64,000 nucleotides of DNA, taken from positions 3,855,119-3,919,118 of the forward strand of contig NZ_MQWB01000001.1 in the NCBI RefSeq assembly GCF_002257665.1. The letters run 5' to 3'. Source of the stretch: Rubricoccus marinus. GTDB taxonomy: Bacteria; Bacteroidota; Rhodothermia; Rhodothermales; Rubricoccaceae. Every line of letters starts with the position of its first letter. Position 1 is the first letter of the stretch. Below, piece by piece: positions 8,621 to 39,118 of this stretch. Both the position numbers and the translations under genes were made by a program. Under the pieces are notes generated by a model that saw only the letters and a program-made list of their open reading frames with translations, was not told the DNA's origin and did not search any database.

Positions 8621-9439
8621 GTGCGCCTTTTCGTCTTCGCCCTCGTTTTCGCGGCCATCCCCGGCTGCACCTGCAACCCCAACAGCGTCAACCGCGGCGA
8701 CCTCAACCTCGTCTCGCTGGACGACGAGTGGGAACTGGGCCGCCAACTCGCCGCCGAGGTCGACGCGCAGGTGGCGCCTCTGGCGGACGCCGAGGTAGAG
8801 GCGTACGCCGACGCGATGGGCGCCAGCCTCGTGGCTGAGACCGAGCTGTCCGACCGCGCGTGGACGTTTACGGTGATCGAGGACCCGGCGGTCAACGCGT
8901 TCGCGCTCCCGGGAGGGCACGTGTACATCCACAGCGGCCTTGTCGCGGCGGCGGAAAGCGAGGCGGAACTGGCGAGCGTGGTCGCGCACGAGGTGGCGCA
9001 CGTGGTGGCGCGGCACAGCACGGAGCGGATGGTGAAGGCGCAGGGACTGAGCGTCGTCGCGGGGCTCGTGCTGGGCGACGATCCCGGCATGATCCGCGAG
9101 ATCGTCGCCGAACTCATCGGGCAGGGTGTGCTGGCCCGGTTTTCGCGCACGGACGAGACCGAAGCCGACGCGCTCGGCCTCCGCTTTATGGCCGAGGCGG
9201 ACTACGACCCCGACGGCATGGCGGCCATGTTCGAGACGCTGCTCGCGCTGCGCCAGAGGCAGCCGGTGCTGTTCGAGCGCTGGTTCGGTACGCACCCGCT
9301 GAGCGAGGACCGCGTCGAAGCGGCTCGCGCTGGCGCGGCCGAGTGGGACGGCTCGGGCTGGGGCGGCGACCCGGCGCGCTTCGAGGCCGCCCGCCGGCGC
9401 GTGCTCGCGCGGACCCCAGCAGCGCCTCTGGCGATGTAG
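8621..9439 (+). CDS. M48 family zinc metalloprotease lipoprotein, 272 aa
   Basis: Periplasmic protease of the Ste24/BepA-like M48 type. It starts with GTG. The signal MRLFVFALVFAAIPGCTCN contains a lipobox (AIPGC) with Cys16. The catalytic motif HEVAH (in SVVAHEVAHVVARHS) is near residue 124, and the third zinc ligand is the Glu in DETEADALGLRFM near 183. It is shorter than BepA and lacks TPR repeats. The family is linked to outer-membrane protein quality control, which fits the beta-barrel genes nearby. The last codons are written in the iterated motif, whose partner lies just after the stop. Confidence 0.88.
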   Translation: MRLFVFALVFAAIPGCTCNPNSVNRGDLNLVSLDDEWELGRQLAAEVDAQVAPLADAEVEAYADAMGASLVAETELSDRAWTFTVIEDPAVNAFALPGGHVYIHSGLVAAAESEAELASVVAHEVAHVVARHSTERMVKAQGLSVVAGLVLGDDPGMIREIVAELIGQGVLARFSRTDETEADALGLRFMAEADYDPDGMAAMFETLLALRQRQPVLFERWFGTHPLSEDRVEAARAGAAEWDGSGWGGDPARFEAARRRVLARTPAAPLAM

Positions 9440-9466
9440 GCGTGCGCCAGAGGCCGGGCGTTTTTT
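9424..9466 (+). terminator. Motif-built terminator overlapping the stop codon
   Basis: GCCTCTGGCG (9424-9433) lies inside the last codons of the protease gene and its exact complement CGCCAGAGGC (9445-9454) lies just after the TAG. A run of six T follows at 9461-9466. A paired-motif hairpin plus U-tract is a convincing intrinsic terminator, and it shows one use for the repeated 10-mer. Confidence 0.7.
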
Positions 9467-9475
9467 GCCCCCGCC

Positions 9476-9507
9476 TTGCTTCTGCGCGCGCCGCTCTCTA
9501 CTCTTCG
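9476..9507 (+). promoter_or_regulatory. Candidate promoter of the asn leader
   Basis: TTGCTT at 9476-9481 and TACTCTTCG at 9499-9507, with 23 bp between the starts of the two elements. The second box resembles the Bacteroidota -7 element TAnnTTTG. It sits about 25 bp before the leader peptide start. Confidence 0.35.
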
Positions 9508-9529
9508 GGCGACTCCTTCCGCTCACGCC

Positions 9530-9607
9530 GTGACGCGCTTCACCTTCAACGCCAATCCCAATCCGGTCTCCGAGAGGAGTCGCGGGAGGTGGCGTGTAGA
9601 GGTCTAG
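9530..9607 (+). CDS. Putative asparagine leader peptide, 25 aa
   Basis: A GTG-started ORF beginning MTRFTFNANPNPV and ending at TAG 9605-9607. Three Asn codons fall within five residues (positions 7, 9 and 11). It precedes asnB and is followed at once by an intrinsic terminator. The Asn-codon segment ACGCCA (9549-9554) can pair with TGGCGT (9590-9595). The region around 9586-9594 can instead pair, imperfectly, with the left arm of the terminator. This is the layout of a classical amino-acid attenuator: ribosome stalling at uncharged tRNA-Asn would free the antiterminator. Function is inferred from layout only. Confidence 0.7.
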   Translation: MTRFTFNANPNPVSERSRGRWRVEV

Positions 9608-9630
9608 CAGACCCGAGTCCCCCATTCCCA

Positions 9631-9665
9631 AGCGGCCCCTCCACTTCCGGAGGGGCCGCTTTTTT
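9631..9665 (+). terminator. Attenuator terminator upstream of asnB
   Basis: A perfect 12-bp stem (AGCGGCCCCTCC at 9631-9642 with its complement at 9649-9660), a 6-nt loop and a T-run through 9665. It lies between the leader peptide and the asnB start, so it would abort asnB transcription unless an alternative pairing forms. Confidence 0.85.
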
Positions 9666-9697
9666 GTGCCCCGGCTTTCCGCCCGCCCCCGTTTGTC

Positions 9698-11362
9698 ATG
9701 TGCTCCATCCTCGGAATCCTCGACCTCCAGACGGACCCCGCCGATGCGCGGTCCACCGCCGTCCGCCTCTCCGGCCTCCAGCGCCACCGCGGCCCAGACT
9801 GGTCCGGCGTCTACGCGTCGGACACCGCCGTGCTCGCGCACGAGCGCCTCGCGATCGTCGACGTGATGGGCGGCGCGCAGCCGCTCCTCAACCCCGAGAA
9901 GACGCACGCGCTCGCCGTCAACGGCGAGATCTACAACCACCGCCTCTTGCGCCAGAGGCTGGAGCAGCCGTTCGCGTTCCAGACCGACTCGGACTGCGAG
10001 GTCATCCTCGCGCTCTACCGCGACCACGGCGCGGATTTCCTGGACGACCTGGTGGGCATCTTCGCGTTCGTGCTCGTCGACGAGACGCGCGGCCGCTACC
10101 TCATCGCGCGCGACCCGATGGGCGTGATGCCGCTCTACACCGGGCGCGACGCGGGAGGCACGCTCTACGTGGCCAGCGAGATGAAGGCGCTCGTGCCGGT
10201 CTGCGAGACCATCGAGACATTCCCGCCGGGGCACGTGTGGGACAGCGAGGTCGGCGAGCCGGTGCGGTACTATTCGCGCGATTGGATGGGCTACGACGCC
10301 GTCGCGGACAACTCCGCCGAGCCTCTGGCGGTGCGCGAGGCGCTGGAGGCCGCCGTCAAGCGCCAACTCATGACCGACGTGCCGTATGGCGTGCTCCTCT
10401 CGGGTGGGTTGGACTCGTCCATCATCGCCGCCACGGCCAAACGCTTCGCCGACCGGCGCATCGAGGCCGACGGTGCGCAAGAGGCCTGGTGGCCGCACCT
10501 CCACTCGTTCGCGATTGGCTTGGAGGGCAGCCCGGATCTGGAGGCGGCGCAGAAGGTGGCCGACCACATCGGGACCGAGCACCACGCCTTCCACTTCACC
10601 GTGCAGGAGGGCCTCGACGCGCTTTCGGACGTGGTGCGGCACCTCGAAACGTTTGACGTGACGACGATCCGCGCCGCCACACCGATGTACCTCATGGCGC
10701 GCCGCATCCGCGCGATGGGCATCAAGATGGTCCTCTCCGGCGAGGGCGCCGACGAGATCTTCGGTGGCTACCTCTACTTCCACAAAGCACCGGACGCGCG
10801 GGCCTTCCACGAGGAGACCGTCCGCAAGCTGGACCGCCTACACCTCTTCGACTGCCTCCGCGCCAACAAGGCGATGGCCGCATGGGGCATCGAAGCCCGC
10901 GTGCCGTTCCTGGATCAGGAGTTCCTCGACGTGGCCATGCGTGTGGCGCCAGAGGCCAAACGCCCGCACAGCGGTCGGATGGAAAAGCACCTCTTGCGCG
11001 AGGCGTTCGAGAGCGCACTTCCTGCGTCGGTCGCGTGGCGTCAGAAGGAGCAGTTCTCCGACGGCGTCGGCTACGCGTGGATCGACAGCCTCCGCGCCCA
11101 CGCCGACGCGCAGGTCTCCGACGCGGACTTCGCGGCCTCTGGCGAGCGCTTCCCCATCCACACGCCGGATACCAAGGAGGGCTACTTCTACCGCACGCTG
11201 TTCGAGTCCCACTTCCCGCTCGACACCTGCGCGCTCACCGTGCCCAGCGGAAAGTCGGTCGCGTGCAGCACGCCAGAGGCCCTTGCGTGGGACGCCTCGT
11301 TCGCGGACTCGGCAGACCCCTCGGGCCGCGCCGTAGCCGGGGTGCACGCCCAGGCGTACTGA
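9698..11362 (+). CDS. asnB: Asparagine synthase (glutamine-hydrolysing), AsnB
   Basis: Makes asparagine from aspartate, glutamine and ATP in the cytoplasm; 554 aa, the length of E. coli AsnB. The protein begins MCSILGI, with Cys2 the N-terminal amidotransferase nucleophile of the GATase II domain (about residues 1-195). The synthetase domain carries the PPi-loop LLSGGLDSS near residue 233 and a second catalytic stretch, LSGEGADEIFGGYLYF, near 347. The ATG at 9698 is fixed by Cys2. The leader ORF and terminator just upstream suggest control by asparaginyl-tRNA charging. The iterated motif appears in several surface-loop positions. Confidence 0.97.
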   Translation: MCSILGILDLQTDPADARSTAVRLSGLQRHRGPDWSGVYASDTAVLAHERLAIVDVMGGAQPLLNPEKTHALAVNGEIYNHRLLRQRLEQPFAFQTDSDCEVILALYRDHGADFLDDLVGIFAFVLVDETRGRYLIARDPMGVMPLYTGRDAGGTLYVASEMKALVPVCETIETFPPGHVWDSEVGEPVRYYSRDWMGYDAVADNSAEPLAVREALEAAVKRQLMTDVPYGVLLSGGLDSSIIAATAKRFADRRIEADGAQEAWWPHLHSFAIGLEGSPDLEAAQKVADHIGTEHHAFHFTVQEGLDALSDVVRHLETFDVTTIRAATPMYLMARRIRAMGIKMVLSGEGADEIFGGYLYFHKAPDARAFHEETVRKLDRLHLFDCLRANKAMAAWGIEARVPFLDQEFLDVAMRVAPEAKRPHSGRMEKHLLREAFESALPASVAWRQKEQFSDGVGYAWIDSLRAHADAQVSDADFAASGERFPIHTPDTKEGYFYRTLFESHFPLDTCALTVPSGKSVACSTPEALAWDASFADSADPSGRAVAGVHAQAY

Positions 11363-11430
11363 GGCCTCTGGCGCGGCTCTGCGGTCGGCTGCAACTACCC
11401 CCGCTTCGCTCGCCCTACGGTCGCGAAGCT

Positions 11431-11550
11431 GTCCCCCTCAACGAGGGGGACAATTCAGATTGGTACTTCGCTCAGCGCTCGGAGTGGATTGTCCCCCTTG
11501 GCAAGGGGGACAGGTCGGCCGCCGTGCAGGCGCGCCGACCGGGGGGTGAT
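11431..11550. repeat. GTCCCCCTT/AAGGGGGAC element, copy E
   Basis: Contains the hairpins GTCCCCCTC-AAC-GAGGGGGAC (11431-11451) and GTCCCCCTT-GGC-AAGGGGGAC (11491-11511). A third inverted repeat, GGTCGGC...GCCGACC, and a GGGGGGTGAT tail follow. Its right half matches copy F at 13799-13854 in the same orientation on the other side of acs. Confidence 0.7.
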
Positions 11551-11566
11551 CTATGCCTCACAAACC

Positions 11567-11584
11567 GCCTCTGGCGCCAGAGGC
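11567..11584. repeat. 18-bp palindrome GCCTCTGGCGCCAGAGGC
   Basis: Perfect copy between repeat element E and the stop of the minus-strand acs gene. Confidence 0.9.
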
Positions 11585-13681: not shown

Positions 13682-13699
13682 GCCTCTGGCGCCAGAGGC
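13682..13699. repeat. 18-bp palindrome GCCTCTGGCGCCAGAGGC
   Basis: Perfect copy 45 bp upstream of the acs start, in the acs leader region. On the transcript it could form a hairpin close to the start codon. Confidence 0.9.
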
Positions 13700-13798
13700 G
13701 TGTGGTGGGGCGGCTTGTTGGGGACGGTGCTCGGCTGGCCTCCTCTGATTCGGGGGCGCAATTCACTCCGCGCGCTGCCTGAAGGATCAGATCTGAAT

Positions 13799-13854
13799 GG
13801 TCCCCTTAATGAGGGGGACAGGTTGACCGACGCCCAGGCGCGCAGACCGGGGTA
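13799..13854. repeat. GTCCCC/GGGGGAC element, copy F
   Basis: GGTCCCCTTAATGAGGGGGAC followed by AGGTTGACCGACGCCCAGG and CGCGCAGACCGGGG. It aligns with the right half of copy E, so acs is flanked by direct copies. Confidence 0.65.
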
Positions 13855-39080: not shown

Positions 39081-39118
39081 AAGGCCTCTGGCGCAACCGC
39101 CAGAGGCCTTCTTTTTTT
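39081..39118 (+). terminator. Strong intrinsic terminator made from paired motif copies
   Basis: AAGGCCTCTGGCG (39081-39093), loop CAAC and CGCCAGAGGCCTT (39098-39110) form a perfect 13-bp stem, then C and seven T. It serves the tRNA-Lys transcript. The plus-strand A-tract before the stem is short, so use by clpP from the other side is less sure. Confidence 0.9.

Follow-up and report, generated by a model that had tools for sequence, protein, structure and literature searches.

The standard examples of classical attenuation involve Trp, His, Thr, Leu, Ile/Val, and Phe. The DNA upstream of the asparagine synthase gene asnB of Rubricoccus marinus raises the question of whether asparagine may be read in the same way. 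R. marinus SG-29T is a marine member of the Rhodothermales with a genome of 4,430,441 bases in 15 scaffolds (PMC5609423). In the 64-kb stretch analyzed here (the window), the original prediction had placed a 25-codon leader open reading frame (ORF) with three Asn codons in five positions, followed by a 12-bp terminator with a U-run, ahead of asnB, and had read them as an attenuator for asparagine. Both elements were found (the stem having 13 bp), and sequence comparison supports the reading, with leader, protector hairpin, and terminator kept in six genomes; the region very probably acts as a classical, ribosome-mediated attenuator of transcription and senses Asn-tRNA(Asn). The features of the locus are as follows.

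8621 to 9439, same strand as asnB: M48-type protease gene, upstream of the asnB leader
9424 to 9468, + strand: inverted repeat resembling a terminator, where the M48 protease gene ends (by eye and terminator scan)
9476 to 9504, + strand: sigma70-like promoter, TTGCTT (9476 to 9481), 17-nt spacer, TACTCT (9499 to 9504) (by eye)
9530 to 9607, + strand: leader peptide ORF MTRFTFNANPNPVSERSRGRWRVEV, GTG at 9530, 25 codons, TAG at 9605 to 9607
9543 to 9602, + strand: protector (1:2) hairpin with the Asn codons in its 5' arm (RNAalifold consensus and pair counts)
9548 to 9562, + strand: control codons AAC (9548 to 9550), AAT (9554 to 9556), and AAT (9560 to 9562), which are leader codons 7, 9, and 11
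9573 to 9583, + strand: core of region 2, predicted left strand of the antiterminator, pairing with the terminator left arm (9632 to 9642)
9600 to 9612, + strand: small hairpin, GGTCT-AGC-AGACC, spanning the stop codon of the leader and capping the predicted antiterminator
9630 to 9666, + strand: intrinsic terminator (regions 3:4) with U-run, 13 bp, conserved in six genomes
9698 to 11362, + strand: asnB, asparagine synthase B (glutamine hydrolyzing; NF006949), putative regulated gene

We infer that the leader is translated, that ribosomes stall on it, and that read-through is controlled. With ample asparagine, the ribosome would pass the Asn codons as far as the stop codon of the leader, the 3:4 terminator would form, and RNA polymerase would halt short of asnB. 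Under a shortage of charged tRNA(Asn), the ribosome would stall at the AAC/AAT codons (9548 to 9562) and mask the 5' arm of the protector; the freed region 2 (9573 to 9583) could then pair with the terminator left arm (9632 to 9642), blocking the terminator, and asnB would be transcribed.

AsnB scores 884.9 bits against NF006949 asparagine synthase B (cutoff, 499). Transcription is predicted to start near 9511; the promoter at 9476 to 9504 was not reported by a consensus scanner at its threshold, and homologous promoters (TTGACA/C/G, 17 to 18 nt, TACTCT/TATCGT/TATCCT) lie 5' of the leader in each of the five relatives. An in-frame TTG upstream of the leader GTG offers an alternative start, which would give 43 amino acids. 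The terminator stem (AAGCGGCCCCTCC/GGAGGGGCCGCTT, 13 bp, GC rich, 9630 to 9661, with the T-run continuing to 9666) is the longest among six terminator-like matches in the 10 kb scanned. Its location between two same-strand genes would also suit a terminator that ends the upstream transcription unit, or one that is constitutive and partial, the ORF before asnB then being there by chance; to this reading we give almost no credence. The M48 protease gene ends in a terminator-like repeat of its own (9424 to 9468), which separates it from the asnB leader and is followed by the promoter-like site, and the leader is conserved in relatives. At least three Asn codons were found in only 3 of 127,972 five-codon windows (six frames, 64 kb); because such windows are very rare and the same layout recurs at asnB in six genomes, chance clustering of Asn codons is unlikely.

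The same region also holds copies of a dispersed decamer, CGCCAGAGGC/GCCTCTGGCG, present 248 times in the 64 kb (0.78 expected) and 14,176 times genome-wide (reversed-sequence control, 61), or about once per 310 bases. It lies within and between genes on both strands (for example, at 9424 to 9433, 9445 to 9454, 11567 to 11584, 13682 to 13699, and 39084 to 39107) and occurs 24 times as an 18-bp palindrome, GCCTCTGGCGCCAGAGGC; some inverted pairs resemble terminators. Ten relatives carry only 6 to 99 copies each (99 in a genome of the same genus), and the decamer is apparently specific to the species R. marinus. It resembles cyanobacterial HIP1 or a DNA-uptake sequence, and its abundance may surprise more than the attenuator. 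A second dispersed hairpin repeat (TGTCCCCCTC..GAGGGGGACA) was seen at 11430 to 11452, 11490 to 11512, and 13798 to 13820, with a 58-nt extended form at 11487 to 11544 and 13795 to 13852; these repeats flank an acetate-CoA ligase gene.

The comparison among relatives carries most of the argument. A close asnB was found in 24 Rhodothermales genomes, and the layout of promoter, Asn-rich leader, terminator, and asnB was present in all six that have the asnB subtype at ≥77% identity. These are five Rubricoccaceae (family f1), namely R. marinus (G000), G001 (same genus as R. marinus), G004, G006, and G008 (Rubrivirga sp. SW42617_bin_3), and one genome of another family (G017). The leaders of the relatives are MTRILNNANRNPVSWRRRECRRALV (G004), MSLSINLVNRNLGSSGRRDRWRA (G006), MIRNLTNANRNPVSRRRRESRRALV (G008), MIHLAPNANRNPLSGRRRDCVWVRV (G001), and MLSLNVNNVNPNPAPRGVAEPGAR (G017). 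Each of the six has 3 to 5 Asn codons within its first 12 codons, and the protector, the alternative antiterminator pairing, and the terminator are predicted at every locus. Comparing asnB relatives had been proposed as a check, and those carrying this asnB retain the terminator, the Asn codons, and a covarying stem that overlies these codons. The peptide 3' of the Asn codons is unconserved (G017 is in another frame there) and the RNA pairing is kept, as would be expected if only the codons of the peptide mattered.

A structured and conserved leader could also be an untranslated one that binds a metabolite (a riboswitch with an asparagine aptamer) or a protein, and such a ligand might work through the hairpins described here. 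We consider this extremely unlikely: conservation within the ORF is highest at the in-frame Asn codons, a stop codon closes the ORF in 6/6 genomes, and Rfam at gathering scores gave no match for the window region or four homologous asnB loci (nor for four trpE loci and one hisG locus, described below). A T-box covariance model likewise gave no match at its gathering score or in a relaxed search of 9450 to 9720.

The distribution of the putative attenuator is narrow. A covariance model built from the six loci found only these at E ≤ 5e-21 in 113 genomes of the order, with the next-best match at 7e-7 (about 14 orders of magnitude weaker), and no further loci in 395 genomes drawn from the phylum. 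The best of the weak matches elsewhere (L137; G007 C1:252382) lies beside unrelated genes, and these were taken as terminator-only. No Asn leader of the right architecture was found in families f5 and f2 of the order, whose asnB genes are more distant, or at 79 further asnB orthologues, mostly gammaproteobacterial; candidates in Alteromonas (L109) and Vibrio (L129) were rejected, as they overlap the end of the preceding gene, before the apparent terminator of that gene. No Asn leaders were found 5' of asnS in 12 genomes.

RNAalifold on the six loci returned two conserved elements, a 19-pair protector hairpin and the terminator. The protector consists of helices 9543 to 9547/9598 to 9602, 9550 to 9553/9591 to 9594, and 9558 to 9571/9576 to 9589, so the predicted pairing of ACGCCA (9549 to 9554) with TGGCGT (9590 to 9595) is real and forms part of a longer conserved hairpin (9543 to 9602). 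Across the six genomes, double-sided changes were counted in 6 of the 19 protector pairs and in three terminator pairs; these nine were reached by 1 of 500 shuffles, and 93.2% of cells were paired in the two elements together (47 to 57% in slid controls). The idea that region 2 can instead pair with the terminator left arm held in part: an antiterminator is predicted in all six genomes, and its left strand had been misplaced, the best competitor for the left arm being GAGGAGTCGC (about 9574 to 9583), with the strand first proposed lying some 15 nt too far downstream. The antiterminator pairing (80% of cells paired in six genomes, versus 41 to 73% when slid) has mismatches and zero compensatory changes of its own; the lack of such changes is unsurprising because the strand must also fit the terminator.

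Folding was modeled with the ribosome masking the leader to about 12 nt beyond the start of an Asn codon and with region 4 not yet made. With the ribosome on any Asn codon, the terminator left arm was predicted to pair with region 2 in 6/6 genomes (mean probability, 0.79 to 0.96); the apical hairpin (9600 to 9612) was predicted when the ribosome is parked on the Asn codons, and similar ones were predicted in relatives. With no ribosome, the predictions for the window, G006, and G008 favor the leader hairpin and a freer left arm (0.45 to 0.59), and those for G001, G004, and G017 still favor the antiterminator (0.79 to 0.90), so that poor initiation may also give read-through. The latter predictions would accord with a coupling sensor that has no amino acid specificity, in which any slow or absent translation of the leader gives read-through and the Asn codons are incidental. 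Such a sensor is very unlikely, since 3 to 5 Asn codons are kept before an asparagine synthase and the peptide has otherwise diverged (with the frame of G017 shifted downstream), and a stall at the conserved Arg/AGG stretch would mask region 2 and favor termination. Folding-energy tests were set aside as support for the hairpins, being mostly uninformative at such high GC content: the leader hairpin was not deeper than in synonymous-codon shuffles (P = 0.14 to 0.89), and the antiterminator was deeper only in some genomes (P = 0.012 to 0.58). The case for an asparagine-sensing attenuator is a comparative one, drawn from only six loci (five from a single family), and is not based on folding depth.

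Codon choice bears on what the proposed attenuator may sense. Codon usage was counted in the long coding sequences of the 64-kb window, where AAT makes up 8 of 298 Asn codons (2.7%). It makes up 15 of 22 in the six leaders, and the last two control codons are AAT in every one; the 32 Asn codons of the six asnB genes are all AAC (0/32 AAT). The AsnB proteins have 3 to 7 Asn per 554 residues (six genomes), a low content that would fit an enzyme needed when asparagine is short. Retention of AAT possibly reflects slower wobble decoding or an unpaired control segment. Asparaginyl-tRNA synthetase (AsnRS) was found in 12/12 genomes tested, so charged tRNA(Asn) can follow free asparagine. The queuosine-inserting enzyme Tgt is also encoded, and since AAU is nearly absent from window genes and presumably wobble decoded at a queuosine-modifiable tRNA position, the switch may sense AAU decoding or queuosine. 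That the attenuator is tuned by codon choice, so that it reports not only asparagine supply but also slow decoding of AAU or the state of queuosine modification of tRNA(Asn), is a tentative suggestion that we hold to be rather unlikely; the rare AAT codons offer a clean test case for whether codon identity tunes attenuation.

Other leaders of this kind occur in the family. A Trp-rich leader precedes trpE in R. marinus (MTTDTLRAWTWWHPASAMGAQSRHA) and in relatives (VWPWWHP, LWWHP), followed in each case by a terminator-like hairpin and U-run (L163, L164, L165, and L166; motifs WTWWHP, VWPWWHP, and LWWHP); L163 is separated from the downstream trpE match by about 240 nt. Judged from sequence, the trpE leaders of R. 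marinus and its relatives are apparent Trp attenuators. A His-rich leader, MTLRRHHHHHAHLGLPADVVRAVASAR (L173), followed by a terminator, lies about 176 nt upstream of a hisG match in one genome (G001). R. marinus itself lacked matches to hisG and leuA and had none of the ilvB type above the cutoff, all three being present in G001; provided that the draft assembly is complete, it is probably auxotrophic for His and the branched-chain amino acids. Like the asnB leader, the Trp and His leaders (L163 to L166 and L173) are short, rich in the matching amino acid, and followed by a terminator-like hairpin; they differ in that amino acid and have no evident sequence relation to the asnB leader. With Trp, His, and Asn leaders in one family, classical attenuation looks like a general tool of the lineage, and together they suggest that ribosome and polymerase are coupled in the Rhodothermales as tightly as such switches need.

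Among known systems, the trp attenuator of Escherichia coli (trpL) and its kin in Proteobacteria and Actinobacteria are closest, sharing a leader peptide with clustered control codons, the 1:2 and 3:4 pairings and, as predicted here, the 2:3 pairing of the protector/antiterminator/terminator scheme (PMC1183508), and a biosynthetic gene downstream. Unlike trpL, the asnB leader has asparagine codons, mostly the rare AAT, belongs to a different phylum, has a longer tail after the control codons, and places its stop codon within the apex of the predicted antiterminator. As in the his, thr, ilv, leu, and phe attenuators, the control codon specifies the product of the regulated enzyme; unlike those leaders, it has only 3 to 5 control codons in 12. 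The attenuated operons given in PMC1183508 do not include one for asparagine, which is also unmentioned in a survey of Actinobacteria (PMC1262725), and an open-literature search, incomplete in coverage and with priority possible elsewhere, returned no asparagine-specific attenuator and no report joining asnB, attenuation, leader peptide, and asparagine. The Asn-specific T-boxes of Firmicutes, reported to control an Asn transporter and, in a few of these bacteria, asnS (PMC2494555), sense tRNA(Asn) charging, as is proposed for the asnB attenuator; a T-box reads uncharged tRNA directly, whereas the asnB leader is a putatively translated ORF without a T-box match. Before its own finding in Firmicutes, a 2010 survey knew leader systems of this kind only from Proteobacteria and Actinobacteria (PMC2965389). 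The asnB leader would thus be a trp/his-type switch in a lineage for which there is little documentation of this type of control, and an asparagine-specific attenuator would add an amino acid to the classical set.
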